Shown here piece after piece: positions 13,162-33,213 of a stretch of 34,262 nucleotides of DNA. Location: positions 1-34,262 of IMG/VR virus record IMGVR_UViG_3300046559_000025; one strand, written 5' to 3'. Below the pieces are notes generated by a model. The model had not been told where the DNA came from, searched no databases, and was given only the letters and a program-made list of their open reading frames with translations. The translations under genes were made by a program, and so were the position numbers. The stretch comes from a virus. Numbering within the stretch: the stretch's first letter is position 1; every line of letters starts with the position of its first letter.

Positions 13162-13190
13162 ATAGTATCCGTAGCATAGAGGGAAGTCAA
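13162..13190 (-). promoter_or_regulatory. Late-operon promoter, leaderless
   Basis: On the minus strand: TTGACT (13190-13185), 17-base spacer, TACTAT (13167-13162), then six bases to the ATG at 13155. The spacer holds the motif CTCTATGCTACGG that recurs at five other control sites. Spacing and hexamers fit a host sigma-A (sigma-70) promoter. The whiB promoter has the same architecture. Confidence 0.75.
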
Positions 13191-13298: not shown

Positions 13299-13317
13299 GG
13301 CCCCAAAGAAGAGGGCC
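13299..13317 (+). promoter_or_regulatory. Leader hairpin with CAAAGAAGA loop (copy 1)
   Basis: Stem GGCCC / GGGCC closes the nine-base loop CAAAGAAGA, 18 bases before the ATG at 13336 and just upstream of its ribosome site. The same loop with a different stem occurs at 14977-14995. See findings. Confidence 0.6.
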
Positions 13318-13335
13318 ACCAATGAAAGGCACACA

Positions 13336-13926
13336 ATGTCACTCTCTCCCGTATATGAACTGATCTACTCCCAGCCGACCGAAGAGACTGTAGTTATCGG
13401 CGAGTTCGATAGCTGGGAAATGCTGGCCTCTCTTCTCACTGAGGAATGCACAATGATCACGGAAGAGTCCGGCAATACTGAGTTGACCCTCATGCTCTCT
13501 TGCTGGTTCATGAAGATGCAAGCTTCGGATGCGGTTCAGTTCGCTGACCTCACAGAAGAGAAGATGGTCTATACCTACCCTGAGTCTGGTATTACCGGCG
13601 GCTGGTCTATCCGTCTTCTTGATACCGGCATTGAGATTCTTCGGACTGAATCCTTCACTAACCGCGAGGGTCAGAATGTGGAGATTGAACTGGAGAAGTC
13701 CACTCTCAACGGCGAGAGCGAATACAACGTCCGCACTTCGATATCGACTCTCACCTTTGAACGCACGGCTACGGTACGGACTATCATTCAGTCGGTATCA
13801 AGCTGGGAGTCGAAGATCAACGCTATCAATGAGATGCGCTACCTCATGATGATCAACGGCTATGAGGCTCCTAAGTCGAAGCAGGCTATCGTCAAGCTGA
13901 GCGGCCAGTTCCGCGACCAGCGATAG
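13336..13926 (+). CDS. Unknown acidic protein, single-gene unit
   Basis: 196 aa (MSLSPVYELIYSQPTEETVV). AAAGG lies six bases before the ATG. The sequence is acidic with repeated strand-like segments (TEEKMVYTYPESGITGG, NVEIELEKSTLNGESEYNV) and a helical C-terminal section (SWESKINAINEMRYLMMI). No family recognised. It is read divergently from the late operon, carries its own leader hairpin and is closed by a UUCG hairpin at 13936-13959, so it is a stand-alone transcript. Its C-ending codons look better optimised than in the small genes of the early block, which suggests high expression. It could be an early host-takeover or anti-defence protein; this is speculation from position only. Confidence 0.85.
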   Translation: MSLSPVYELIYSQPTEETVVIGEFDSWEMLASLLTEECTMITEESGNTELTLMLSCWFMKMQASDAVQFADLTEEKMVYTYPESGITGGWSIRLLDTGIEILRTESFTNREGQNVEIELEKSTLNGESEYNVRTSISTLTFERTATVRTIIQSVSSWESKINAINEMRYLMMINGYEAPKSKQAIVKLSGQFRDQR

Positions 13927-13935
13927 AGGCTATAT

Positions 13936-13959
13936 GGTCCCACCCTTCGGGGTGGGACC
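13936..13959 (+). terminator. UUCG hairpin terminator of the 196-aa gene
   Basis: A perfect ten-base stem (13936-13945 with 13950-13959) closes a TTCG tetraloop, ten bases after the stop at 13926. No T-run follows, as is frequent for actinobacterial terminators. Confidence 0.75.
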
Positions 13960-13964
13960 TAGCC

Positions 13965-13992
13965 GCGTGGAAATAAACTGGGTGGATTTGAT
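13965..13992 (+). repeat. 28-base direct repeat, copy 1
   Basis: This block (starts GCGTGGAAATAAACTGG, ends GATTTGAT) recurs at 14814-14841 with one change in 28 bases. Each copy opens a control region that later contains CATGTT, TTTGATGCGTC and a GCATAGA operator-like site. The 205-base stretch 13927-14131 holds the terminator, this repeat and the likely promoter of the Lsr2-like gene, but no gene. Confidence 0.8.
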
Positions 13993-14040
13993 ACTGGCCG
14001 ACGCCCTGATCCATGTTTATTGGTTTGATGCGTCTTATAT

Positions 14041-14070
14041 GTTGCATCGTGCTGGCATAGAGGGTAATGT
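14041..14070 (+). promoter_or_regulatory. Candidate promoter of the Lsr2-like gene with operator copy
   Basis: TTGCAT (14042-14047) and TAATGT (14065-14070) are separated by 17 bases, a passable sigma-A arrangement 60 bases before the ATG. The spacer contains TGGCATAGAG (14053-14062), a copy of the shared operator motif. An alternative -10 (TTATAT at 14033-14038) cannot be excluded. Confidence 0.4.
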
Positions 14071-14131
14071 TTCTCTTGTAAGGCAAACAACCCCGGGGAA
14101 CGATCCCCACAGAGTCCAAAGGACAAAGACC

Positions 14132-14725
14132 ATGACTGAAGTTTCCACTCCCAGCGCCGCCGATTCCATCTACGCAACGATCGCCAACGATATCTTGGCT
14201 GAAGCCAAGAATGACTCCCAGAAGCTTCACGATATGGTGAAGCAGGTCAAGACGGCCAAGGGTAGCGCGGATGACGTGAAGAAGTGGATCGATGAGTCCA
14301 CAGAAGACACCGTTGTGAAGCGCCGCGACGCTATCGCCAACGCCAAGGCAAAGATCGCGGAGATTCAGGCCGAGCTTGAAGCAGAAGCACGTGCCGCTAT
14401 CGTCCCGGATGATATCGACGTTAACGCGATTCAGGAATCCTTCAAGACGGTACGTGGTGAGGTTATCAAGACTCTCAGCGCCGCCCGTATCATTCTTGGC
14501 AAGGCAGGCGTTAAGGACTTGTCCGAGATTGATGAGCTTCAGAATAACCTGCCTAAGAGCATCACGGGCGTATTCAGCGGCTCCGGTAAGTCCCCTGAAG
14601 AACTTGCCAAGGTTCGGGAATGGGCTCGCGCTAATGGCCACACTGTCGCGGATCAGGGCCGGATCGCAAAGTCGATTCAGGATGAGTATGACGCCGCTAT
14701 GAAAGAGGGCGCAACGGCTGAGTAA
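14132..14725 (+). CDS. Nucleoid-associated protein with Lsr2-like C-terminal domain
   Basis: 197 aa from ATG 14132, with AAAGGA eight bases upstream; the reading frame is open further up but has no better start. Residues about 1-110 are helical, with a charged coiled coil (KKWIDESTEDTVVKRRDAIA). Residues about 155-190 match the Lsr2 DNA-binding domain: SPEELAKVREWARANGHTVA, then DQGRIAKSIQDEYDAA. Lsr2 has RGR in the minor-groove loop; here it is QGR. Lsr2 proteins bridge and silence AT-rich DNA in Actinobacteria. The phage protein keeps the DNA-binding end but has a different, longer N-terminal part in place of the Lsr2 dimerisation domain. It has its own promoter and a strong terminator. It may mask phage DNA, counter host Lsr2 silencing or set early gene expression. 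Confidence 0.82.
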   Translation: MTEVSTPSAADSIYATIANDILAEAKNDSQKLHDMVKQVKTAKGSADDVKKWIDESTEDTVVKRRDAIANAKAKIAEIQAELEAEARAAIVPDDIDVNAIQESFKTVRGEVIKTLSAARIILGKAGVKDLSEIDELQNNLPKSITGVFSGSGKSPEELAKVREWARANGHTVADQGRIAKSIQDEYDAAMKEGATAE

Positions 14726-14731
14726 GCTCTA

Positions 14732-14771
14732 AAAAATATCCCCTATACCTTCGGGTATAGGGGATATTTTT
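14732..14771 (+). terminator. Strong UUCG terminator, bidirectional
   Basis: Perfect 18-base stem (14732-14749 with 14754-14771) around a TTCG loop, ending in a T-run on the plus strand and, because it is symmetric, on the minus strand as well. It starts six bases after the Lsr2-like gene stop. Confidence 0.93.
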
Positions 14772-14776
14772 ATGCC

Positions 14777-14807
14777 CTGATATCAGATCATATATCCTAT
14801 AGGATAT
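14777..14807. repeat. Two adjacent perfect palindromes
   Basis: CTGATATCAG (14777-14786) and ATATCCTATAGGATAT (14792-14807) are each perfect palindromes, five bases apart, just past the terminator. They look like protein-binding sites at the left edge of the noncoding region 14726-15377. Confidence 0.7.
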
Positions 14808-14813
14808 TGGATT

Positions 14814-14841
14814 GCGTGGAAATAAACCGGGTGGATTTGAT
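14814..14841 (+). repeat. 28-base direct repeat, copy 2
   Basis: Second copy of the block at 13965-13992 (27 of 28 bases identical). It is followed by a perfect Crp-type site, then CATGTT and TTTGATGCGTC, as in the first copy. Confidence 0.8.
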
Positions 14842-14851
14842 GCGTACCAAC

Positions 14852-14871
14852 GGTGTGACCCACGTCACACC
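14852..14871. promoter_or_regulatory. Perfect Crp/GlxR-type operator
   Basis: GGTGTGAC-CCAC-GTCACACC is a perfect inverted repeat. Its core TGTGA-N6-TCACA (14854-14869) equals the consensus bound by cAMP receptor family proteins, including Crp of mycobacteria and GlxR of corynebacteria. It lies about 26 bases upstream of the shared GTAGCATAGA operator motif at 14897. Confidence 0.65.
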
Positions 14872-14896
14872 CTCTCATGTTGTGTTTGATGCGTCC

Positions 14897-14913
14897 GTAG
14901 CATAGACTCTATG
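14897..14913. promoter_or_regulatory. Operator motif copy GTAGCATAGAC with palindrome
   Basis: GTAGCATAGAC (14897-14907) is a copy of the motif found at the late, whiB and 22-kb promoters. The bases CATAGACTCTATG (14901-14913) form a palindrome around one central base. TTGATG at 14887-14892 lies upstream and TATGTA at 14910-14915 could be a -10 (18-base spacing), giving a possible plus-strand promoter for a noncoding or long-leader transcript. Confidence 0.5.
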
Positions 14914-15000
14914 TATGGCCTCAGGTCAGCCCGTTGGTTCGGGAGTTGTTTTAGAACTCAATAGCGATATGAAAATAAAGCCAAAGAAGAGCTTTAGGGC
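14910..15000 (+). ncRNA. Possible structured small RNA or long leader
   Basis: No open frame of note. Three small hairpins follow one another: CCCG/CGGG (14930-14943), GAGTT/AACTC (14943-14959) and AAAGC/GCTTT with loop CAAAGAAGA (14977-14995). The nearest gene starts only at 15378. Transcription from the putative promoter at 14887-14915 would make a structured RNA, either stand-alone or a 460-base leader of the early operon. Neither a known family nor a terminator at its end is seen. Confidence 0.35.
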
Positions 15001-15148
15001 ATATCAGATATAAAGGATATGATTATATCCAAGATAGCGAACTATCAATGTTATCTGTAGCTGATATGCCTCATGGACATTCTTTGATATCCAAAATGCC
15101 GATAATATTGGTTGCTAATAATCTAACTTTTTACATTCGAGTATAAAT

Positions 15149-15190
15149 CCCATATAGAAGTCTTTCACTCCGTTACAGACTCTATATGGG
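15149..15190. repeat. Long bulged hairpin next to the AGTGTAAA array
   Basis: CCCATATAG (15149-15157) pairs with CTATATGGG (15182-15190) and, after a bulged A, AGTCT (15159-15163) pairs with AGACT (15177-15181), leaving a 13-base loop. Fourteen pairs with one bulge. It directly abuts the repeat array. No T-run follows on either strand, so a terminator is unlikely. Confidence 0.7.
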
Positions 15191-15193
15191 TTT

Positions 15194-15326
15194 AGTGTAA
15201 ACTTTATACAATGTAAAGTGTAAACCCTAACTTCCGCGTATTCTAGGGGTTTTAGTGTAAGGTTTACACTCCGAGTGTAAACTTTATACACTCCTAGTGT
15301 AAAGTGTAAAGAATCGGACTGTAAAC
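15194..15326. repeat. Phased AGTGTAAA repeat array (origin or operator array)
   Basis: Copies of AGTGTAAA or close variants start at 15194, 15217, 15254, 15274, 15296, 15303 and 15318 (CTGTAAAC), with inverted copies at 15263-15270 and 15287-15292. Most neighbours are 20-23 bases apart, about two helical turns. AGTGTAAACTTTATACA occurs twice exactly, 80 bases apart (15194 and 15274). The array is AT-rich, lies between the two divergent halves of the genome and before the replication genes, and has a hairpin on its left. This is the organisation of iterons at a replication origin, or of an array of repressor sites; the sequence alone cannot decide. Confidence 0.65.
15263..15290 (+). promoter_or_regulatory. 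Candidate early-operon promoter inside the array
   Basis: TTTACA (15263-15268), 16-base spacer, TATACA (15285-15290). Both hexamers overlap array repeats, so a protein bound there would control the early operon starting at 15378. Confidence 0.5.
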
Positions 15327-15332
15327 CCTAGT

Positions 15333-15355
15333 GATATGCCCCTATCAGGCATATC
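15333..15355 (+). promoter_or_regulatory. Leader hairpin before the early operon
   Basis: GATATGCC (15333-15340) and GGCATATC (15348-15355) form a perfect eight-base stem with loop CCTATCA, eight bases upstream of the AAAGGAG ribosome site of the first early gene. It could protect the mRNA 5' end or tune translation. Confidence 0.55.
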
Positions 15356-15377
15356 CCACTAAAGGAGATATACCGCT

Positions 15378-15578
15378 ATGACATGGATCGAAGTAACTCC
15401 CGCTTATGGCCGCGACTACAAGAATCAGAAGGCAGTAAAGGAAGATTGGGATAAGAACCTCGACTTCCGTGATACTCGCACTGGTTCTTACATCACTAAG
15501 AATGAGGCTATCAAGCACAACCTGTCTGTTAATGTCCGCTACTCCAACCTTACTAAGATTGTGACGGTAAAGAAGTAA
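15378..15578 (+). CDS. Small conserved-type phage protein
   Basis: 66 aa (MTWIEVTPAYGRDYKNQK). The pattern VTPAYGRDYK ... DFRDTRTGSYI ... VNVRYSNLTKIVTVKK resembles a short protein found in many actinophages, function unknown. Strong AAAGGAG ribosome site nine bases upstream. First gene of the early operon after the repeat array. Basic C-terminus. Confidence 0.85.
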   Translation: MTWIEVTPAYGRDYKNQKAVKEDWDKNLDFRDTRTGSYITKNEAIKHNLSVNVRYSNLTKIVTVKK

Positions 15579-15579
15579 C

Positions 15580-15705
15580 ATGACTACCCGTAAAGAACTT
15601 CGTAAGAAGTATTCCCTCACTAAGTTCACCGCTGATCTGTTTATCTTTGCAGTAGCGGCCTTCTTTATCCTGTCTATCTACCTTGGAAGCGGTGTTATCA
15701 AGTGA
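15580..15705 (+). CDS. Small single-TM membrane protein
   Basis: 41 aa: a basic N-terminus (MTTRKELRKKYSLTKFTA) followed by one transmembrane segment (LFIFAVAAFFILSIYLGS) and the end GVIK. It starts one base after the previous stop and its own stop overlaps the next GTG start (GTGA), so it belongs to the coupled early operon. Small early membrane proteins often act in superinfection exclusion or host membrane changes, but no function is shown. Confidence 0.7.
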   Translation: MTTRKELRKKYSLTKFTADLFIFAVAAFFILSIYLGSGVIK

Positions 15706-16028
15706 GTGAACTGAAGCCTGAGATTAAGGCCGCACTATCCCACAGAGAATACTTCAATCAAGGCGGGCTTAAAGGTTTCTATCCTTATTCGGATGCTCGG
15801 CCGCATATGGTATACATTGTGCGCAGTGGCGTTGATACCATTGCTGTCTTCGACGGTGACATATGGCATATAAGCGACAGCGACTTTCATTCTCTGCGCA
15901 CTAAAGAAGACTTGAGACTAGTCAAGCAAGTTATCGGGGATCATGATGCTTACTCCATGTTCCCTGTGGTTCCCACGTTGGCCGCAATGGATGCTCTTCT
16001 TGAGCGTCTCGAAGTTAAGGAAATCTAA
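15702..16028 (+). CDS. Hypothetical early protein
   Basis: 108 aa from GTG 15702, which overlaps the previous stop (GTGA). MSELKPEIKAALSHREYFNQ starts it; the middle has YIVRSGVDTIAVFDGDIWHI, a beta-rich stretch, and the end is helical (LAAMDALLERLEVKEI). No family recognised. The stop overlaps the next start (TAATG). Confidence 0.8.
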   Translation: MSELKPEIKAALSHREYFNQGGLKGFYPYSDARPHMVYIVRSGVDTIAVFDGDIWHISDSDFHSLRTKEDLRLVKQVIGDHDAYSMFPVVPTLAAMDALLERLEVKEI

Positions 16029-16282
16029 TGCCTAAGTACACATACGGTGCTAAGTACATCGAAGTAGTAAAGACCGAACTATCCGACGTTGTTCTCTTCA
16101 ACCGCTCATCTAAAGAAGTATTGGTTATTCCCCTGTGGGAATTGGAACGGGTGACTAAGGAACTAACCGACCTTGTTATCGCTGAGCAGGATAAGAAGGA
16201 TGAAGAACGTAGGCGTAAAGAGCAGGCAGAGAATGATCTGCTTCAATCCAACCTTTGGCGTATTAAGAAGGAAGGCGAGTAA
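16028..16282 (+). CDS. Hypothetical early protein, charged C-terminal helix
   Basis: 84 aa. The N-terminal half is beta-like (GAKYIEVVKTELSDVVLFN, EVLVIPLWELERV), and the C-terminal half is a charged helix (EQDKKDEERRRKEQAENDL). Coupled on both sides by TAATG overlaps. No family recognised. Confidence 0.8.
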   Translation: MPKYTYGAKYIEVVKTELSDVVLFNRSSKEVLVIPLWELERVTKELTDLVIAEQDKKDEERRRKEQAENDLLQSNLWRIKKEGE

Positions 16283-16467
16283 TGACTAAGCGAATCTCTA
16301 CCGTAGAGGCGGACTTGATTACTAAGTTCGGTACTCCTGCCCACGAATCATACGATATCGAAGAACTACGTGAGTATGGCGTTGACTTCAATCAACTCAT
16401 TAAGGAATACGTGAGAGACGGTAATAAGAAGATCGTCCTTACCCTTACCACAGAAGAGGTAGAGTAA
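16282..16467 (+). CDS. Small hypothetical early protein
   Basis: 61 aa (MTKRISTVEADLITKFGTPA), with EELREYGVDFNQLIKEYV in the middle and a strand KKIVLTLTTEEVE at the end. Coupled on both sides by TAATG. No family recognised. Confidence 0.78.
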   Translation: MTKRISTVEADLITKFGTPAHESYDIEELREYGVDFNQLIKEYVRDGNKKIVLTLTTEEVE

Positions 16468-16862
16468 TGTCCACAGAAGATAAGACTCAATTTATCCTCG
16501 ACTGCACGGAATTCCTGTACGTGTATTCGCCTAAGAATACCGAGGCGGACGCGCGCTATGTATTCAAGGATGCGCGATTCGACGGTCCTAATAAGCTCGA
16601 CGATGCTTATGAGTATGCTGTACAGCTTCATGAAGATAAACTCCTCAAAAGAATAGAAGAGTTCTTCAAAGAAGAATACGGCTCCCACAGGGTTAAAGAA
16701 GTACGGGACATTTCATGGGTATATGGTCCCAATGTTCATAGTCGGCATGTACGTGTTACCATTGAGGACCATGAGGGTACTGAAATAGTCGCTGACTATA
16801 AAGTCGAACTCGATAAAGACTGGCAGGTAACTACCTGTGAGGAATACAACCGCGTTATCTAA
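16467..16862 (+). CDS. Hypothetical early protein
   Basis: 131 aa, acidic. It has an N-terminal helical part with TEFLYVYSPKNTEADARYVF, a helix LDDAYEYAVQLHEDKLLKRI, and a C-terminal beta part (HVRVTIEDHEGTEIVADYKV). No family recognised; coupled to the preceding gene by TAATG. The gap to the next gene is ten bases. Confidence 0.8.
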   Translation: MSTEDKTQFILDCTEFLYVYSPKNTEADARYVFKDARFDGPNKLDDAYEYAVQLHEDKLLKRIEEFFKEEYGSHRVKEVRDISWVYGPNVHSRHVRVTIEDHEGTEIVADYKVELDKDWQVTTCEEYNRVI

Positions 16863-16872
16863 GTGAGAGGTT

Positions 16873-17382
16873 ATGCCTAACCCTAATCGTTTCAATCCGC
16901 GCAACAAAGCGCTAGGGGAAGCCAATACGCTACTTATATTGGCTTCCCTTAAGACCGGGCCTAAGACAATGAATGATCTTATGGCCGTGTCTGGTCTTAC
17001 TCGACAGACACTAACCAATAAGATCAAGGCCAATAAGGATATCCGGGCCACAGCTACTAGGCCGATCAAGTATTATATCGGTGACCATGTAGAGCTATCG
17101 ACTATCCCCGATGAAGTTATCCGCCCTGATAAACCTACTAAGGTAGACACTGTAAAGGCGGCCATTGTTCATGCGCCTAATGAAGTAGTCTTCTTTCCCG
17201 CCGCTACTCATCACGATCACTCACGCTTTCACGATCACATTCTTAACAGTGAAGAAGACAACGGCTTCATGAATATGTATCGATCTGTGGGAACTAAGAG
17301 TGATCTAAATAACCTTGAACACCAGATCAAAACAATGTATGACCTAGTTCAATTCCGTAAGACACTGAAGGAGTTTGAATGA
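16873..17382 (+). CDS. Winged-helix/HTH-type DNA-binding protein
   Basis: 169 aa. Residues about 14-70 look like a winged helix: EANTLLILASLKTGPKTMND, then LMAVSGLTRQTLTNKIKA as turn and recognition helix, followed by a wing-like TATRPIKYYIGD. The C-terminal half contains a His-rich segment (ATHHDHSRFHDHILNSEED) that could bind metal. The ribosome site (GAGAGG) is only two bases from the ATG, so translation may be weak. The coding start holds a perfect 12-base inverted repeat at 16916-16948. Possible early regulator, perhaps autoregulated. Confidence 0.75.
   Translation: MPNPNRFNPRNKALGEANTLLILASLKTGPKTMNDLMAVSGLTRQTLTNKIKANKDIRATATRPIKYYIGDHVELSTIPDEVIRPDKPTKVDTVKAAIVHAPNEVVFFPAATHHDHSRFHDHILNSEEDNGFMNMYRSVGTKSDLNNLEHQIKTMYDLVQFRKTLKEFE
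16916..16948. repeat. 12-base inverted repeat inside the HTH gene
   Basis: GGGAAGCCAATA (16916-16927) is perfectly complementary to TATTGGCTTCCC (16937-16948), loop of nine, about 45 bases into the coding region. It can be an operator for the encoded DNA-binding protein or an RNA hairpin. Confidence 0.75.
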
Positions 17383-17651
17383 GTAACCATACCGGCCCCG
17401 GTTATTGGAAGATCACTAATACCCGATACGGTTTTGCTGTGGTGGATGGTAAGGTACGACGTAAACGGTTATACCATACTGAGATAAATGCCAGTCATGT
17501 AACACCGTGGCTTGCTATATGGGTTAGCGATAATCCTTACAGTATCCAAGCACCTAAGAGATTCAAGACACATAAAGACGCCCTCGCCTATGCCGTGTTG
17601 GGTGGAACGCCTATCCCGCCTGAAACATTGGCAACTCTGGAAGAGAGATAA
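17379..17651 (+). CDS. Hypothetical basic early protein
   Basis: 90 aa, starting with an ATGA overlap with the previous stop. It opens GPGYWKITNTRYGFAVVDGK and has a basic strand region (RRKRLYHTEI) followed by PWLAIWVSDNPYSIQAPKRF and the helix THKDALAYAVLGG. No family recognised. It ends four bases before the SNF2 gene. Confidence 0.82.
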   Translation: MSNHTGPGYWKITNTRYGFAVVDGKVRRKRLYHTEINASHVTPWLAIWVSDNPYSIQAPKRFKTHKDALAYAVLGGTPIPPETLATLEER

Positions 17652-17655
17652 AACA

Positions 17656-19773
17656 ATGAGCGACCTTGACGATTTCTTTGCTAACATATTCGACGGAGCC
17701 GAACCTGCTAAACCGGCCAAAGAAGAGCCTGTTAGTGAAGCTCCCACAGAAGAAGTAAAGAAGATTGTTCTTAGCGGTGAGTTCTTTGATCCTGAAGACA
17801 AAGTTATCGAAGACGGTATTTGGGCGGGTATGACGGTTGAAGAAGTAGCCGCTGAATACGGTCAAGAAGAACCTGTAGAGCCTGTAGTTCTTTCTCCTGT
17901 GGATATCGCCAAGGCGGCTGTCGAAGCGGCTAACCAGCGCGAAGAAGAAGCACGCGCTAAGTTCCAAGCCGTTAAAGATGAGTACGCGGCAATGGAAGAA
18001 ATGATGCGGGTTATGCGTCAGAAGTTTGCCGACGCTAATACCGAATACCGTGAAGTCGCTAACGATAAGCACGCGGCACAACGTAAGCTTACTGAAGCTG
18101 AGTTCATTGCTCAGGAAGAAGCTAAAGAAGCTGAGATTCAAAAAGAGAAGCGCGTATTGGTAGAGGGATACCGTAAGAAGGTAGAAGAACTTGATCCGGC
18201 ATGGCGTAATGGTGCTTACGATCACCAGTGGGAAGGTGCTACTACTCTTGCACTTCACGGTAGCGCTCTATTGGGTGACGAAATGGGACTCGGTAAATCT
18301 CTCACCGCTCTTATGGTCCTCGACTTCATCGATGCACACCGCACGCTTATCGTTGCTCCTAATGGCACGGTAGAGAACCTGACTCTTGAGGCTATGCGTT
18401 GGAGTCCTCACCGCTTTACATTCCCTATGGCCGGTAGCGATAACGCTACTCGCACCGCATTGCTGAACACTATCTTCCGTCGCCGCTTTGAACAGGGTAA
18501 AGACTTTATCATGACGGTTAACTTTGAGCAGTTGCGTAATGCGGAATTCGTTGAGCAACTTCGTGAGTTGCAATTCGATACCATCATCGTCGATGAGGCA
18601 GACGGATTCAAGGATAAGTCGAGCGGTCTTTATAAGTCGCTCTATCGTCTGCGCTACGCGGCTAACAAGTTGGAAGAGAATGGTGAGCTTAGCTGTAGCG
18701 TTAAGCACTTCTATCCTATGACCGGTACCTTTATCCGCAACAAGCCTGCTGATATCTGGCCTGCCCTTAACTTGGTAGACAAAGAAGCTTTCCCGGTTGA
18801 GCGTGAGTTCCTGCTTACCTACTGCACCTATGATTCCTATGATGGGAAATGGAACTTCAGGACTGGTGGAGTTAGCTCGCTTATCAAGCGACTCGGTGGC
18901 CGTATCGTTATGCGCACCACAGTAGAGTGCGGAATCATTATCCCCGAACAGATTCTTCACGATGAGAATCCCGCTCACCTTGAAGTCTGTGAAGAATGTC
19001 GTACCGAATTCCCCATTCGCTTTATGGATGGTGAGTATGGTGACCAGCGCCGCATCATGAAACAGCTGGCCGAACATTCTCAGATCATTCTTGATAGCGA
19101 ACGTAAGACTTCCACTATGGAACAACTCGCTATCATTACCCGTAACCGGCAGGCAGTAGTATGGCCCGGCGGTATCAAGCTTACGGGTGAACATGCCGAC
19201 GGTAGTAAGTTCGAGTTCTCTGTGGGAGAAGACGTTAACGAATCTATCAAGGTCGATTGGGTGGAACGCAAAATCCGCGCCTTGCGTGCTAAAGGTAAGC
19301 GCGTAGTCGTATTCTCTCAGTTCAAGGACGGTATTAAAGAACTGGAGTCCCGGCTTAGGGATCAGCGGGTTGTTCGCTATGACGGTGACACGCCTTCTGA
19401 TATCAAGTCCCGGGTTATGCAGGACTTTGATAGGCGAGTAGTTGCCGATCGCGGCAATGAATGGGAATGGGATATCGTTCTCTGTAACTTTAAGACTGGC
19501 GGTGTTGGTCTTAACTTTACTCACGCCACAGATACCATTCTTCTCGATGAGTATTGGAACCCGGCAGGTAATGAACAGGCTTTCCGTCGCACTAAGCGAA
19601 TGGGACAGACTGAAGTAACTCACGTATGGATTCCCCGAGTTGCCCGCACTATCGATACGTGGATGAAGAATCTCAACGACGATAAGCGCGCTATGGTGGA
19701 CGGCTTTAACCTTGAAGTCGATATGGAAAAGAACCTGACCGACTTCCTCTCTATCATGAAGGGCGACCTGTAA
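17656..19773 (+). CDS. SNF2-type superfamily 2 helicase/ATPase
   Basis: 705 aa from ATG 17656; the longer frame upstream would overlap the preceding gene. Residues 1-180 are an acidic, coiled-coil section (from SDLDDFFANIFDG on). The helicase core follows: Walker A GDEMGLGKS (about 206-214), the DEAD-type motif II IIVDEADGF (about 310), motif III MTGTFIRN, then RecA domain 2 with KRVVVFSQFKDGIKEL, FKTGGVGLNFTHATD and motif VI QAFRRTKRMGQT (about 640-651), all typical of SNF2 proteins. A Cys pair (CEEC) sits between the domains. It likely remodels or translocates on DNA in replication, recombination or displacement of host proteins. SNF2 ATPases are known from many phages of Actinobacteria. 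Confidence 0.93.
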   Translation: MSDLDDFFANIFDGAEPAKPAKEEPVSEAPTEEVKKIVLSGEFFDPEDKVIEDGIWAGMTVEEVAAEYGQEEPVEPVVLSPVDIAKAAVEAANQREEEARAKFQAVKDEYAAMEEMMRVMRQKFADANTEYREVANDKHAAQRKLTEAEFIAQEEAKEAEIQKEKRVLVEGYRKKVEELDPAWRNGAYDHQWEGATTLALHGSALLGDEMGLGKSLTALMVLDFIDAHRTLIVAPNGTVENLTLEAMRWSPHRFTFPMAGSDNATRTALLNTIFRRRFEQGKDFIMTVNFEQLRNAEFVEQLRELQFDTIIVDEADGFKDKSSGLYKSLYRLRYAANKLEENGELSCSVKHFYPMTGTFIRNKPADIWPALNLVDKEAFPVEREFLLTYCTYDSYDGKWNFRTGGVSSLIKRLGGRIVMRTTVECGIIIPEQILHDENPAHLEVCEECRTEFPIRFMDGEYGDQRRIMKQLAEHSQIILDSERKTSTMEQLAIITRNRQAVVWPGGIKLTGEHADGSKFEFSVGEDVNESIKVDWVERKIRALRAKGKRVVVFSQFKDGIKELESRLRDQRVVRYDGDTPSDIKSRVMQDFDRRVVADRGNEWEWDIVLCNFKTGGVGLNFTHATDTILLDEYWNPAGNEQAFRRTKRMGQTEVTHVWIPRVARTIDTWMKNLNDDKRAMVDGFNLEVDMEKNLTDFLSIMKGDL

Positions 19774-19774
19774 C

Positions 19775-20206
19775 ATGCCTTGGTATCTCGCGCTCCTGCT
19801 AGTAGCAACTCTACTAGCAGGAGCGACGGGTATTGTCATAGTTAATATCCGTGACCGCAAACCGAAGTATAAAAGAATACAGGATGACTTCAGCCTTATG
19901 CTGGATACTCCTGCCAAGAAAGCCCGTCACCTGAAAGAACATCGTGACTGGGATCAAGAGTTCCACGGCTACCTAAAGCAGCGGGAACTTATTATCTGGA
20001 ACGGCAAGCTTATGTCCATCGAAGAAGCTGACCGTTCTTACTACGAAGAAGAAACAATAAGGAGATATAATGAAATTCTCGAAAAAGGTAAACTCATTCT
20101 ACTTAGCGGCTGCAATCGCATTCTCGGCTGTAACTGTGGGAAGCGTAGTTGCTCTTTCAACACCGGCACCGGCAGAAAGTCCGGTTGGAACTCAGGTCAG
20201 TGGTAA
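19775..20206 (+). CDS. Membrane protein with N-terminal TM, long 3' overlap
   Basis: 143 aa. One N-terminal transmembrane segment (YLALLLVATLLAGATGIVIV) followed by a charged cytoplasmic-type region (RDRKPKYKRIQDD, KKARHLKEHRDWDQEF). The last ~45 residues (LILLSGCNRILGCNCGKRSC and on) overlap the next gene in another frame by 137 bases and are Cys-rich, so they may be a by-product of the overlap. The coding start contains a perfect 15-base hairpin (19791-19825). Start one base after the SNF2 stop. Confidence 0.7.
   Translation: MPWYLALLLVATLLAGATGIVIVNIRDRKPKYKRIQDDFSLMLDTPAKKARHLKEHRDWDQEFHGYLKQRELIIWNGKLMSIEEADRSYYEEETIRRYNEILEKGKLILLSGCNRILGCNCGKRSCSFNTGTGRKSGWNSGQW
19791..19825 (+). repeat. 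Perfect 15-base hairpin after the SNF2 gene
   Basis: CGCTCCTGCTAGTAG (19791-19805) pairs fully with CTACTAGCAGGAGCG (19811-19825), loop CAACT, within codons 6-17 of the membrane protein gene. There is no T-run. It could attenuate transcription or be an mRNA processing site; the codons also encode an Ala/Leu-rich helix. Confidence 0.85.
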
Positions 20207-20273
20207 AGAATACACTATGACCACAGCACAGATGAATTACTTTCTCGACCGCATTCATTACGGACAGAAGTAA
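20070..20273 (+). CDS. Small secreted or membrane-anchored protein
   Basis: 67 aa. Strong ribosome site AAGGAG five bases before the ATG. The N-terminus is a signal peptide or anchor: basic MKFSKKVNS, hydrophobic FYLAAAIAFSAVTVGSVVAL, then STPAPAES, with a possible cleavage after Ala-Pro-Ala. The mature part is short (GTQVSGKEYTMTTAQMNYFL). It overlaps the previous gene by 137 bases in a different frame. Small exported phage proteins often act at the host envelope, for instance in superinfection exclusion; no direct evidence here. Confidence 0.75.
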   Translation: MKFSKKVNSFYLAAAIAFSAVTVGSVVALSTPAPAESPVGTQVSGKEYTMTTAQMNYFLDRIHYGQK

Positions 20274-20276
20274 GTC

Positions 20277-20477
20277 ATGAGTAAGCAGGAGGTAGAGGAA
20301 TTCGTTTGCGATAGCTGTGGAGCAACAGCTATCATCACTGACTTCAGTGAGAGCCACACACTGCCGCCTAACTGGCTCCACCTTATCGGGCAGGTAGATA
20401 AAGCCTATGCCTTTGAGCTTGACCTTTGTCCCAAAGATGCGGCCAAAGTCCTTAGATCACTAGAGAAGGAACTCTAA
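20277..20477 (+). CDS. Small zinc-binding-like protein
   Basis: 66 aa. EEFVCDSCGATAIITDFSES carries a Cys-x-x-Cys pair (Cys11, Cys14); a third Cys is in ELDLCPKDAAK. This resembles a minimal zinc ribbon with a helical end (RSLEKEL). No function known. Starts three bases past the previous stop. Confidence 0.78.
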   Translation: MSKQEVEEFVCDSCGATAIITDFSESHTLPPNWLHLIGQVDKAYAFELDLCPKDAAKVLRSLEKEL

Positions 20478-20478
20478 T

Positions 20479-20829
20479 ATGTGCGACGCTTGCGAAATGA
20501 TGAAAGAAGAAGACAGCGGAGTAAAGGCGCTCTATAACGAGTGGCTCGATCAGGAGAACATAAAGCCCGGCGGTATGCTTGGGGCTGACTATGAAACCGG
20601 AATGGTCCGAATCCCTAACATCGGTATCATGGTTGTTCAGAAGACCACAGACCGTAGTGTCACTACTCTTGAGGGACACACTGAACTGCCGCCTAAGCTC
20701 AATGCGATCATTATCCATGAAGGTGAAATGGATAACTTCATTCGCGGTATCTTTGTTCAGATGGGTCCTGAGTTCATGTTCGGTCTTATCGGAAAGGAGT
20801 TCAACAAAGATGACTACGACGGCATCTAA
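20479..20829 (+). CDS. Hypothetical early protein
   Basis: 116 aa (MCDACEMMKEEDSGVKAL), with a short Cys pair at residues 2 and 5, a helix ALYNEWLDQENIKPGG and a beta-rich middle (RIPNIGIMVVQKTTD, NAIIIHEGEMDNFI). AAGGA ribosome site upstream. It overlaps the 2H phosphoesterase gene by 20 bases. No family recognised. Confidence 0.8.
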   Translation: MCDACEMMKEEDSGVKALYNEWLDQENIKPGGMLGADYETGMVRIPNIGIMVVQKTTDRSVTTLEGHTELPPKLNAIIIHEGEMDNFIRGIFVQMGPEFMFGLIGKEFNKDDYDGI

Positions 20830-21325
20830 GCGGGCTAATACCTTCCAAGGTAGTCGGGTCTTCATCGGACTTAGGCCCACGATTTTCGATAACGTAGAAG
20901 ATCAGCACATCACTCTTGAGTACGTCGGTAGCTTCCCTGACTGGAAAGAACTCATCATGAAGTGCGAGCGTTGGGCAAACAAGTTTGCCTACATGCCCGT
21001 AACTGTGGAAGTGAATGGCTACGGTAACTGGCTGGCTACTAATAACGGTGACCATCGCTATTTCGACGTAGCCTTGATAGGCTTTAGGGAATACCCTGAA
21101 CTCACGTATCAGAAGAACTGGCATATCACCCTCGGCAAAGACACTAAGCCGATTAAGCCTCGACAATTCGATATCATGAAAGACGCAGACAAGTTCGATA
21201 TCTGCGACGATCTGTGGATCGGATATAAGAAGGCAGATGGTACGTCGGCTTGGATCAGGTACTTGGGCAATAGGGGAACCCTTATGCCTCAAGAATTGGA
21301 GCCTGAAAGTTGGCAGGTAGAGTAG
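20810..21325 (+). CDS. 2H phosphoesterase superfamily protein (LigT/Acb1-like fold)
   Basis: 171 aa from ATG 20810, chosen because GGAAAGGAG lies ten bases upstream; the frame is open further up but without such a site. Two H-x-T-x motifs define the family: HITL at 33-36 (in QHITLEYVGS) and HITL at 105-108 (in NWHITLGKD), 72 residues apart, with strand VFIGLRP before the first and FDVALIGF between. The family includes LigT RNA ligases/cyclic phosphodiesterases, ADP-ribose cyclic phosphodiesterases and phage Acb1, which cuts cyclic nucleotide signals of CBASS defence. Either anti-defence or RNA/NAD repair is possible; the substrate cannot be read from the sequence. Confidence 0.8.
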   Translation: MTTTASKRANTFQGSRVFIGLRPTIFDNVEDQHITLEYVGSFPDWKELIMKCERWANKFAYMPVTVEVNGYGNWLATNNGDHRYFDVALIGFREYPELTYQKNWHITLGKDTKPIKPRQFDIMKDADKFDICDDLWIGYKKADGTSAWIRYLGNRGTLMPQELEPESWQVE

Positions 21326-21888
21326 TATGCGCCTATTGTGCAGTAGGATTTCCAGAAGGATTCTGTCTCACAGAAGGCAAGTGCAGTTCAAAAGACGATA
21401 TGCTAGAAGGAGGCGAGAAGAACCTTGGAGAGATACTCGATATCACCGCGTCGCTCGGGGAAGACACATCTAGCGAGAGAGTATATAAAGATGCTGTCTC
21501 AACTGGACGCAAAAGAGCGGCCGAACTTTACCCGATATCAGTTGGGCAGGTTTGTGCGTGGGCATGGTCTAAAAACTGCGGGGGCGGCGTATCGCCTATC
21601 ACCGGCTGTACTGGTAGGCCAGCCACCAACATTCATCACGGACCTGATAAAAGCACGTTCTCTAATGAAGCCTCCAATATATCCGTCATTTGCACGTTTT
21701 GCCACAATCGCTGGCACGTCGCAAATGATAAGTTCTATAGTGAGCCAAGGCCCGATAATGGACTTCCGTGGCTACCAAATGTTCCCGAGGGTAAAGAACT
21801 TATACCCTTGGAAGCTAGAGTAAAAGCAAGTAAGCAGGAAATCCTTATGGAAGAAATGCTCATACCAGAAGGCGGTAAAGATAAGTGA
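21310..21888 (+). CDS. Zinc-binding HNH-type nuclease protein
   Basis: 192 aa from TTG 21310, with GGAG eight bases upstream; no other start gives the Cys-rich N-terminus. Residues about 6-25 hold several cysteines (CAYCAVGF, FCLTEGKC). The C-terminal part is HNH-like: NIHHGPDKS, then ASNISVICTFCHNRWHVAND, i.e. His-His, Asn, and the Cys-x-x-Cys-His pattern with the last His in RWH. HNH proteins nick or cut DNA; in phages they act as homing or repair nucleases or in packaging. A competing frame from 21425 to 21823 also lacks stops but shows no family signature beyond a chance GKT. Confidence 0.82.
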   Translation: MAGRVVCAYCAVGFPEGFCLTEGKCSSKDDMLEGGEKNLGEILDITASLGEDTSSERVYKDAVSTGRKRAAELYPISVGQVCAWAWSKNCGGGVSPITGCTGRPATNIHHGPDKSTFSNEASNISVICTFCHNRWHVANDKFYSEPRPDNGLPWLPNVPEGKELIPLEARVKASKQEILMEEMLIPEGGKDK

Positions 21889-22052
21889 ACGTAGATATCG
21901 TAGTAAACATTCAGTATAGCAAGGTAGTGCCAGTAGGTCCCGGTAAAGCTATTACGACTACCGAACAGATTCAGATCAAAGATACTGTCGATGAGACTGT
22001 GGTCCAGAGTTATATCAATACCATGACGCCGATAGTTAGCGAACCGGCTTAG
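21885..22052 (+). CDS. Small hypothetical protein
   Basis: 55 aa from GTG 21885, overlapping the HNH gene stop (GTGA). Sequence MNVDIVVNIQYSKVVPVGPG, then ITTTEQIQIKDTVDETVVQS, beta-rich, ending TPIVSEPA. No family recognised. It is the last gene before the promoter at 22069. Confidence 0.62.
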   Translation: MNVDIVVNIQYSKVVPVGPGKAITTTEQIQIKDTVDETVVQSYINTMTPIVSEPA

Positions 22053-22068
22053 CGTAAAGAATGTCGAT

Positions 22069-22097
22069 TTGACACGATAGCCACTCTATGCTACACT
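22069..22097 (+). promoter_or_regulatory. Consensus promoter of the second replication unit
   Basis: TTGACA (22069-22074), 17-base spacer, TACACT (22092-22097). A match to the host sigma-A consensus. The -10 is covered by the left arm of an 11-base inverted repeat (22084-22118), so a repressor bound there would block it. It begins a transcript with a ~195-base leader before the Cas4-like gene. Confidence 0.78.
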
Positions 22098-22118
22098 TGT
22101 AGTAACGGTAGCATAGAG
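22084..22118. promoter_or_regulatory. Inverted operator CTCTATGCTAC ... GTAGCATAGAG
   Basis: The arms 22084-22094 and 22108-22118 are perfectly complementary, 13 bases apart. They are two copies of the motif also found at 13171, 14053, 14897 and 31514. Centre to centre the arms are 24 bases apart, so two bound molecules would face the same side of the helix. Confidence 0.75.
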
Positions 22119-22125
22119 TAAGCAG

Positions 22126-22141
22126 ATAACTCAATAGGTGG
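22126..22141 (+). repeat. Leader repeat ATAACTCAATAGGTGG, copy 1
   Basis: Recurs at 24563-24578 with one change (ATAACTAAATAGGTGG). Both lie in untranslated leaders of replication genes (Cas4-like gene and SSB-like gene). Confidence 0.65.
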
Positions 22142-22183
22142 GGATAAGGATTACTCAACCTTATCTTAAACGATGACAGGGAA

Positions 22184-22271
22184 TGGGCGCTAGACGAAAG
22201 AGATTCCAAAACGGATCGTCTCGTATATGCGATCACGCTGGCTATATCTAGTTAGCCGAAGTTCACGCCCA
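22184..22271 (+). ncRNA. Structured leader RNA before the Cas4-like gene
   Basis: TGGGCG (22184-22189) pairs with CGCCCA (22266-22271) and encloses at least two hairpins: GATCG/CGATC (22214-22234) and GGCTA/TAGCC (22240-22257). This makes a multi-branched 88-base fold in the leader, with no open frame, 29 bases before the start codon. It is not a tRNA (no T-loop or D-loop features). A hairpin GATAAGG/CCTTATC (about 22142-22164) precedes it. Could be a regulatory leader, riboswitch-like element or stable RNA. Confidence 0.45.
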
Positions 22272-22288
22272 CCGCTATCCCAATAAGG

Positions 22289-22305
22289 AGCACAAAGAAG
22301 ATGCT
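22289..22305 (+). promoter_or_regulatory. Start-codon hairpin with CAAAGAAGA loop (copy 3)
   Basis: AGCA (22289-22292) and TGCT (22302-22305) close the loop CAAAGAAGA. The A of the start codon is the last loop base, and part of AAGGAG is in the stem. A four-base stem is weak on its own; the interest is the repeated loop. Confidence 0.35.
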
Positions 22306-23140
22306 GATTGAAGACGTAGAAGTTAGTCCCCCACAGAAGGTATGGCGCATTAGCCATTCCACAGGAGAAGCTTTCCTTGCCTGCGAAAAGAAGTATGAAT
22401 ACGCTCACGTAGAGAACCTTGCACCTAAGAAGATGCCTGCGGCTTTGGCCCTTGGTATCTACGGGCACGGAGTATTTCAGGTATTCTTTGAACAGATCAA
22501 AGAACATGGTGACGCTGGTGTTGCTCAGGCTCTTGCATTGCGCCACGCATATAAGGATATCGAACACTTCGGTAAGATCGGCAATGAGCTTATCTACTGG
22601 TTCGATAACGTATGGCCGACGCTTGGCTGGAAAATCCTTGAAGTCGAAAAGACGTTTTACCTGAAACTGAATGAGGATACGGAATACCCGTTTACCGTTG
22701 ACCTCATTATCGAATTGAATGGTCAGCTTCTTATCGTTGACCATAAATTCACCGCCGATGCCTATGCCGAAGAACTTCTTCTGGTATACCCACAGCTTCC
22801 CAAGTACATCGGGGCGCTTAGGGCATTGGGAACGCCGGTAGTATCCGCTATCTATAACATCGTCCGTACCCGGTCGATGAAAGATATGGACGCTAAGCTT
22901 GTTCGCCAGCCGGTAAAGGTGAACAACGCTCGCATTAAGAACAGCTTCAAGATTCACCTGAACACAATTGATAAGATCAAGTCTCATGAAGGTGAGTTCG
23001 TCCGCAACGTCGGATATGGTTGCAAGTTCTGCTCTTTCGTTGACCTCTGCGGTCTTGAAATGAATGGCGAAGATAGTACGTCGCTAAAGGCAGTGGACTT
23101 TGTTCCTAACACCTACGGATATGCAGGGGAGGAACTGTAA
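22301..23140 (+). CDS. Cas4/RecB-like PD-(D/E)XK exonuclease with Fe-S cluster
   Basis: 279 aa. The nuclease core is FTVDLIIELNGQLLIVDHKF (about residues 130-149), giving the Asp and DHK of the PD-(D/E)XK motif. An upstream Cys (FLACEKKYEYA, Cys28) and three C-terminal Cys (GCKFCSFVDLCGL, about 246-258) match the four cysteines that hold a 4Fe-4S cluster in Cas4 and AddB-type nucleases. Likely a 5'-3' or 3'-5' exonuclease making single-stranded ends for recombination with the Sak4-like ATPase two genes on. AAGGAG lies ten bases upstream; the ATG is inside a hairpin with a CAAAGAAGA loop (22289-22305). Confidence 0.87.
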   Translation: MLIEDVEVSPPQKVWRISHSTGEAFLACEKKYEYAHVENLAPKKMPAALALGIYGHGVFQVFFEQIKEHGDAGVAQALALRHAYKDIEHFGKIGNELIYWFDNVWPTLGWKILEVEKTFYLKLNEDTEYPFTVDLIIELNGQLLIVDHKFTADAYAEELLLVYPQLPKYIGALRALGTPVVSAIYNIVRTRSMKDMDAKLVRQPVKVNNARIKNSFKIHLNTIDKIKSHEGEFVRNVGYGCKFCSFVDLCGLEMNGEDSTSLKAVDFVPNTYGYAGEEL

Positions 23141-31957: not shown

Positions 31958-33213
31958 TACATCAGCTTTCTAGGTCGAAGATATCCAAGCAAAGAAGCCT
32001 TGGAAAGAGTCACCACAGCACTCGTACCTTTATTACCGGCACTCGTAGCGTTATTACTTAGGGTCTTTACGAACCCATTTCCCAAATCCTGGATGATGAT
32101 TCCAACATGGGACATAGGAGTATTTCCGCCAGCACCCCATACCGCAACGTCGCCCATTTGCGTCTTCTGGTTATTAGCGACTTGCTGATATACCTTTGGA
32201 TCATGGTTCTGCCATATCTCCTGAGCATAACCAACCATCGGTGCCTGACCTCCGACAAACCCTGTGGTATAGAAGTCGTAGAGGTCTACACACTGAGCGC
32301 CATAAGCATGGTCATAGTCCAGATACCTATTAGTATTAGACGTAATCCATTGGGCAGAGCCGTTTCCTGTAAGAGTAGGCGAACTTCTCGCACCCTCATT
32401 ATAAGAGGACATAATCTGCTGTGCTCTTGCATATTGCGCTTCATAATTAGAGCCGTCACTAAAAGCACTTCTCTGGACCGCCTGAGCCTTGGCCCACGGT
32501 GTATCGCCCTGTGCCGCGCTCAAATGGTCGAAGAAGGTTCCTGCCGCGTAGTTAGGATCGAGGACCTGTCCGGGCGCTCCCCAGCCCTGAGAGGGGCGCT
32601 GTTGGAACAACCCGAGACTGTCCTGATCGCCGCCGTTGATATTCCGCAGACCGGATTCAGCGAGAGAGGTCATAATACCGATTTGGATATCGCTATCACT
32701 AAGACCTCTTGCTTTACCCGCCCGAATAATAGCCTGAGCGTTATTGGACTGTTCCCCGTCGAGCCCCTTAATAGGTCCGCTATAGCTTCCATCTGAGGAC
32801 ATAGGGCCGAGGTTAGACGTATCCAGCCCCAAAGCTTTATTAGCGGCATCCCGAGCGGCATTAACCTTCTGGACTTGGGTATTAACAATACCATTTGCCG
32901 CCTTACCCATATTTGCAATAGGGTCCCCGTTAAGACCGAGTTCATCGGCATTAGCGGGTCTAATTGTCGTGCCAGTAACCTGACCGGGAGTGTTAGCGAT
33001 ATTAGATTGTGCCGGGGAGTTATTGGTATCAGGAGCCTGTGCTTGACCTAAAGCGGGAGTAGGCTGTGCCAGCCCCCCAGTATTAGACTGAGGGGCTGGC
33101 ATAGAATCAAAGTGACTCTGAGTGCCTTGCATATACTTAGATACCACAGGGCTCTTAGCGGCTGCCCCTAGACCAAAAGGGTCAGCCGAGATAGGCGTAG
33201 CCATATCTGCCAC
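31957..33213 (-). CDS. Virion lysin: transglycosylase-like plus CHAP
   Basis: 418 aa from GTG 33213 (TAGTG overlap, GAAGGA upstream). Residues 1-150 are Pro/Gln/Asn-rich linkers. Residues about 160-275 form a lysozyme/transglycosylase-like domain: the helix TSLAESGLRNI with the catalytic-type Glu186, and DSLGLFQQRPSQGWG, a pattern typical of actinophage virion-associated hydrolases. Residues about 285-418 are a CHAP domain with Cys308 (YGAQCVDLYDFY) and His369 (MSHVGII). Such two-enzyme proteins open the cell wall at injection. Its CHAP resembles that of the endolysin. Confidence 0.85.
   Translation of the reverse strand: MADMATPISADPFGLGAAAKSPVVSKYMQGTQSHFDSMPAPQSNTGGLAQPTPALGQAQAPDTNNSPAQSNIANTPGQVTGTTIRPANADELGLNGDPIANMGKAANGIVNTQVQKVNAARDAANKALGLDTSNLGPMSSDGSYSGPIKGLDGEQSNNAQAIIRAGKARGLSDSDIQIGIMTSLAESGLRNINGGDQDSLGLFQQRPSQGWGAPGQVLDPNYAAGTFFDHLSAAQGDTPWAKAQAVQRSAFSDGSNYEAQYARAQQIMSSYNEGARSSPTLTGNGSAQWITSNTNRYLDYDHAYGAQCVDLYDFYTTGFVGGQAPMVGYAQEIWQNHDPKVYQQVANNQKTQMGDVAVWGAGGNTPMSHVGIIIQDLGNGFVKTLSNNATSAGNKGTSAVVTLSKASLLGYLRPRKLM

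Follow-up and report, generated by a model that had tools for sequence, protein, structure and literature searches.

A recurrent hairpin with a constant purine loop and interchangeable stems in early transcripts of Jasminevirus-type Arthrobacter phages: a candidate recognition element for an RNA-binding factor

The window analysed here is the whole 34,262-nucleotide (nt) stretch of IMG/VR virus record IMGVR_UViG_3300046559_000025, a soil phage contig that is syntenic, in reverse orientation, with the Arthrobacter podoviruses Jasmine, Casserole and Brad of the genus Jasminevirus; Adat is also counted among these relatives. The replication proteins of the window and of Jasminevirus are about 60% identical. 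Jasminevirus early genes run leftward from the right terminal repeat, and the equivalent strand in the window is the + strand. Along this strand the nine-base sequence CAAAGAAGA recurs in small hairpins whose stems differ from site to site, and it is this element that is described below.

Four such hairpins lie on the + strand of the window. Hairpin 1, GGCCC-C(AAAGAA)G-A-GGGCC at 13299..13317, stands 18 nt upstream of an early-strand open reading frame (ORF) at 13336..13926 (+), a weak homologue of Casserole gp56/gp2, and is unchanged in three more contigs of the same phage type. Hairpin 2, TAAAGC-C(AAAGAA)G-A-GCTTTA at 14976..14996, belongs to the early leader and lies 11 nt downstream of the boxA-like sequence GTTGTTTTAGAACTCAATAG at 14945..14964 (+). 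Hairpin 3, GGC-C(AAAGAA)G-A-GCC, has a stem of 3 base pairs (bp) and is located at 17712..17732 within the 5' coding part of an SNF2-type helicase gene (17656..19773, +), which likely starts at ATG 17656 and whose N-terminus MSDLDDFF aligns with MSELDDFF of Jasminevirus. Hairpin 4, AGCA-C(AAAGAA)G-A-TGCT at 22289..22305, overlaps both the Shine-Dalgarno (SD) sequence AAGGAG (22285-22290) and the start codon at 22301 of a RecB/Cas4-like PD-(D/E)XK exonuclease gene (exo; 22301..23140, +). The original prediction had placed hairpins GGCCC/GGGCC at 13299-13317, AAAGC/GCTTT at 14977-14995 and AGCA/TGCT at 22289-22305; all three are present there, and the second stem is lengthened to 6 bp at 14976-14996.

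The window holds six copies of CAAAGAAGA, five of them on the + strand, against 0.35 expected. Three are flanked by 4-6 Watson-Crick pairs and the helicase copy by 3, while the coding copies at 16667 and 31161 have no stem. When all copies are included regardless of pairing, a stem of at least 3 bp is found for 4/6 copies in the window, 4/5 in Casserole, 5/6 in Jasmine and 4/5 in Brad, as compared with 4/138 for other AAGAAG 9-mers in the same register. Among purine-rich 9-mers, CAAAGAAGA alone is stem-enriched in all four genomes examined. In third-order Markov simulations of the window, 0/200 produced any loop of 7-12 nt with three distinct 4-bp stems, and Rfam 15 gave no match above the gathering score in the window.

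In Jasminevirus, all copies of CAAAGAAGA are on the early strand, and the only one without a stem is a coding copy in gp31. The sites are in the early leader, at the start of the helicase gene and, for several early genes, at the ribosome-binding site or start codon. Stems at gene starts are AACC/GGTT at Jasmine gp57, ACTC/GAGT at gp51, CCA/TGG at gp44 and GCA/TGC at exo, where the window has AGCA/TGCT and thus retains GCA/TGC; the helicase stem is ACCGGC/GCCGGT. At gp56 of Adat, which corresponds weakly to window ORF 13336, CAA-C(AAAGGA)G-A-TTG with a 3-bp stem and the loop CAAAGGAGA stands immediately 5' of the start. Behind the promoter of Jasmine gp57, Casserole and Brad carry a different first early gene with stem ACTAC/GTAGT and loop CAAAGGAGA, so that the stem of the first early gene behind one promoter is swapped in place with pairing retained. 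A second replacement in place is found in the leader after boxA, where AAAGC/GCTTT of the window corresponds to CACC/GGTG in Casserole and Brad (full hairpin CACC-A(AAAGAA)U-A-GGUG), together with a change of the inner C-G to A-U. The proposal that the loop is constant while the stems differ and still pair is therefore borne out by the relatives: the search for the loop with complementary flanks found pairing preserved with altered stem sequences, and the refuting case of sequence kept without pairing did not arise. Two other hairpins are noted beside these sites. At the window start 20479 (~20456-20477), the gp44 homologue has no CAAAGAAGA hairpin and TAGAG-AAGGAA-CTCTA stands right before the start codon. 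At 31981-32004, on the strand antisense to the late genes, CCAAG-CAAAGAAGC-CTTGG carries C in place of A9; it is also present in Jasmine and probably reflects protein-coding constraint.

In the predicted RNA folds of most sites, C1 and G8 of the 9-mer form a pair and A9 is bulged out, which leaves the hexaloop AAAGAA. In the Casserole/Brad leader, A1 and U8 occupy the closing positions and AAAGAA and A9 are the same, which agrees with the closing-pair model by one compensatory event. The refined element is thus a hexaloop AAAGRA closed by a single pair, with the 3' A bulged and a stem of 3-6 bp that varies. In an alignment of 13 sites (A6), which includes the leader and AAAGGA copies chosen because they pair, 82.4% of pair cells are standard against 48.1% in shuffled and at most 38.5% in slid controls; there are 32 double-change (compensatory) cells against 10.9, and the covariation score is 0.804 against 0.186, with 0/500 shuffles reaching the observed value of each measure. 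A covariance model (R1) was trained on the window and Jasminevirus sites, and its recovery of these is by construction; across the window and the three Jasminevirus genomes, E values up to 0.03 include 23 matches, every one on the early strand, and the following match has an E value of 0.53. Its negatives are informative: nothing comparable was found in 43 loci from host regions and other viruses (324 kb, mostly host rRNA-region DNA), in the Arthrobacter phages PrincessTrina, Gordon and Galaxy, or in Shocker and DS1, which are distant relatives. As the latter two do not have the hairpin, conservation is testable within the window and Jasminevirus, to which the tests are confined. IMG/VR contigs near-identical to the window add no covariation, and contig L014 (88-92% identical) ends short of the hairpin region, its CAAAGAAGA copies having no stem.

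The position of the hairpin at start sites varies in detail. At exo, A9 is the A of AUG and the likely SD AAGGAG is outside the loop, with the hairpin overlapping SD and start; the SD of gp44, GGAG, shares bases with the 3' arm; and SD-like purines are part of the loop or the 3' arm at gp51, Jasmine gp57 and gp54. The hairpins of gp51, Jasmine gp57, gp54, gp44 and Adat gp56 end about 1-9 nt from a start, and the leader and helicase copies are away from start sites. Occlusion of the SD or start by a bound protein is plausible, and the loop is not simply an SD. A general theme of SD sequences in hairpins was considered and rejected for Jasmine, whose starts show 7 against 5.3 (P 0.29); in the window the signal is weak (6 against 2.3, P 0.025). 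Since SD-in-loop hairpins are not generally enriched at Jasmine starts, the constraint is specific to the CAAAGAAGA loop.

The helicase copy had been thought to be a possible chance match (GGC/GCC in SNF2 coding sequence), which it probably is not. Its stem has 5-6 bp in Jasminevirus versus 3 bp in the window, and in Jasmine, Casserole and Brad it is inside an identical block of 28-30 nt, the flanks of which no longer align (ungapped identity 0.23-0.42); Brad has an insertion of about 38 codons ahead of the block. The window copy retains AACCGGCCAAAGAAGAGCC. This conservation may reflect constraint on the RNA or on the protein sequence (PAKEEP). Codon conservation was discarded as sole proof of RNA constraint, as 82.4% of degenerate codons at residues shared by the three phages are identical anyway.

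The leader copy is set apart by its boxA. GTTGTTTTAGAACTCAATAG is one base off GTTGTTTGAGAACTCAATAG, a 20-mer frequently present in genomes of Arthrobacter, Mycobacterium, Kocuria and Rothia; two Arthrobacter genomes have it 162-171 nt 5' of 16S rRNA. Both are presumably boxA antitermination sites, judging from what is known of rRNA operon (rrn) leaders. Jasminevirus leaders have the same boxA sequence, with TTAATAG or TAAATAG endings, followed by their own version of the hairpin, so that the order of boxA and then hairpin, as in nut sites, is common to the window and Jasminevirus. No such hairpin was found in the host region downstream of the rrn boxA. Contig L149 (814-833), which has no homology to window proteins, also carries a near-exact boxA copy; among further viral contigs showing the boxA pattern, L158 looks like the host rRNA leader and most of the rest are unlike phage leaders. 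That the rRNA boxA has been copied suggests use of the host rRNA antitermination machinery by these phages. The first predicted ORF past the leader (15378..15578, +) encodes a basic protein of 66 amino acids (aa), for which a homologue search gave none, and the untranslated leader of roughly 400 nt would be the type of transcript that needs protection from Rho. A leader peptide was rejected because the mini-ORFs surrounding hairpin 2, of 14 codons in the window and, by eye, of 7-31 aa in Jasminevirus, are not conserved in sequence.

Several further features surround the early leader and promoters. Between the leader and the first early ORF, a GTGTAAA/TTTACAC array of direct and inverted repeats occupies 15188-15325, and a different array (GGATAGGATAGAATGG) is found at the matching position in Jasminevirus. 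A 52-nt direct repeat (79%; GCGTGGAAATAAAC(T/C)GGGTGGATTTGAT) flanks an Lsr2-like gene at 13965-14016 and 14814-14865, and a perfect 18-bp inverted repeat with A/T tails at 14732-14771, resembling a bidirectional terminator, separates that gene from the leader. A promoter-like TTGACA-N17-TACACT, read from the sequence, is present 5' of exo at 22069..22097 (+), with the same arrangement in Jasminevirus. CTCTATGCTAC / GTAGCATAGAG recurs around promoter-like sites at 13172-13182, 14897-14906 and 22083-22118 and also in Jasminevirus; it forms an inverted repeat spanning the -10 region of the exonuclease promoter and is a possible operator.

Recurrence, strand bias, covariation, position and the host boxA match are computational observations on the element itself. 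The interpretation to which moderate probability is given is that the hairpins are one cis-acting recognition element of early transcripts for a trans-acting RNA-binding factor, most likely encoded by the phage, since among the sequences tested only these phages have the element. From these observations we infer the factor, its phage origin, the direction of regulation and antitermination. The putative factor would recognise loop and bulge, with the stem sequence free provided that it pairs. Where a start site carries the hairpin on or next to its SD or start codon, the bound factor would control translation. On the early leader it may assemble with NusB/S10/NusA at boxA and act on RNA polymerase, like lambda boxB. 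A more tentative version is that one phage protein works at both levels, as the boxB-like partner of the copied rRNA boxA in antitermination and through a translational operator at several early genes. The original prediction of a recognition hairpin for a phage RNA-binding regulator holds in so far as a binding hairpin of early transcripts is the most economical explanation, and that a phage RNA-binding regulator reads it is an extrapolation. The boxA beside hairpin 2, the likely bulged A with its hexaloop, and the conservation of the coding copy had escaped that prediction.

A number of points weigh against a common recognition element. Pfam and PHROGs searches yielded no RNA-binding candidate. 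The copies per genome are few (4-6), the exo and gp44 stems have just 3 bp (4 at exo in the window), and the gp56 copy is missing in Casserole and Brad. The Jasmine leader copy is degenerate, C replacing the bulged A, and the inner change of C-G to A-U is a single event whose A-U is left open by RNAfold. Hairpin 4 is absent from the predicted minimum-energy fold, the start-site folds taken one by one are mostly no stabler than shuffles (z near 0), and the selection of copies for A6 because they pair belongs here as well.

Among the alternatives, the one that survives best, unlikely as it is, is a purely nut-like (boxB-type) function, in which the factor travels with RNA polymerase, copies along the operon reload it and nearness to start codons merely reflects available non-coding space. 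This would fit the boxA and hairpin in the early leader of the window and Jasminevirus, the copy within the helicase coding sequence and the spread of copies over the first ~8 kb of the early operon, and variable sites with a constant A-rich loop do resemble boxB (PMC11893012). However, boxA accompanies the leader copy alone and most other copies overlap an SD or start codon. The first-operon proteins tested gave no family match and no N-like gene was recognised, although short divergent arginine-rich-motif (ARM) proteins can escape a hidden Markov model (HMM) search; the loop is also unlike the GNRA-like pentaloop of lambda boxB.

Rather improbable is a translation signal acting in cis only, the purine loop being an SD variant in a hairpin that needs no dedicated protein, like the Start-Associated Sequences (SAS) of Cluster K mycobacteriophages. 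The SD-like loop AAAGGAG at Casserole/Brad gp54 and Adat gp56 speaks for it, as does the similar layout of SAS (GGGATAGGAGCCC), which typically lie 3-7 bp before starts (PMC3203893). Yet AAAGAAG, a poor SD, is retained without change, the probable SD of exo (AAGGAG) and that of gp44 (GGAG) fall outside the loop, the leader and helicase copies are away from starts, and SD-in-loop hairpins show no general excess at Jasmine starts. Slightly less credible still is an endoribonuclease site that inactivates early mRNA, with the hairpin presenting the cut. T4 RegB cuts the SDs of early mRNAs and sometimes coding sequence (PMC3014915), a similar distribution; the target here is purine-rich, and a 2H/LigT-like phosphoesterase (sub-threshold Pfam match) is encoded in the same operon. 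Against this, no RegB/RelE-type nuclease was recognised, the loop has no GGAG, and RNA structure, which is conserved here, inhibits RegB (PMC3014915). A trans-acting antisense RNA was rejected, as TCTTCTTTG is absent from the Jasminevirus early strand, with shorter kissing loops still conceivable. Finally, that common Lys-Glu codons and SD purines produce the 9-mer and the stems are accidental is very improbable: some copies do lie in coding sequence and have no stem (16667 and 31161 in the window, gp31 in Jasminevirus), but the stem enrichment, the covariation, the specificity of R1, the shared helicase block, the 4/138 control and the recurrence with other stems in independent genomes all contradict it.

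Post-transcriptional control and antitermination seem little described in phages of Actinobacteria: a literature search on mycobacteriophage boxA antitermination found no paper, and the words “motif” and “hairpin” do not occur in the Jasmine genome paper. A defined RNA of 19-21 nt with natural stem variants offers a bait with which such a regulator could be sought in phage and host grown in the laboratory (Jasmine or Adat with Arthrobacter sp. ATCC 21022), and a new orthogonal hairpin-protein pair could serve as a tagging tool like MS2 or boxB.

The lambda boxB loop is a GNRA-like pentaloop. The element here has instead the 9-mer CAAAGAAGA or hexaloop AAAGAA with a bulged A; most of its copies have no boxA and are at start sites, no N protein was identified, and the phage boxA is of the actinobacterial rRNA type. 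It is like lambdoid nut sites (including the mEp021 type), early-leader elements with several sites per genome in which no more than about twelve bases separate boxA from a small hairpin whose A-rich loop is conserved, in that a boxA-like site, presumably of NusB/S10 type, is just upstream of the early-leader hairpin. Such a combination of boxA and constant A-rich loop characterises lambda-type nut sites (PMC11893012). The host actinobacterial rrn boxA is nearly the same 20-mer as the phage leader sequence, but is not followed by such a hairpin. Cluster K SAS (PMC3203893) are likewise short elements in a single orientation at start codons of non-structural genes, with a purine core and complementary ends; they conserve their arms (GGG/CCC) and a real SD, whereas here the arms compensate, the loop AAAGAA is constant and some copies are off starts, and A6 with its variable arms does not conform to the 13-bp SAS consensus. 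The T4 gp43, RegA and RegB sites (PMC3014915) are RNA signals at ribosome-binding sites of early genes too, and one is a hairpin whose loop is conserved in related phages. The gp43 site, however, is a single autogenous operator, RegA sites have no RNA structure, and RegB requires an unpaired GGAG, which CAAAGAAGA does not contain and which is present only in the AAAGGA variants. These T4 sites have the logic of the element in common with it, but not the features. The hairpin points to an undescribed RNA signal, probably read by a protein.

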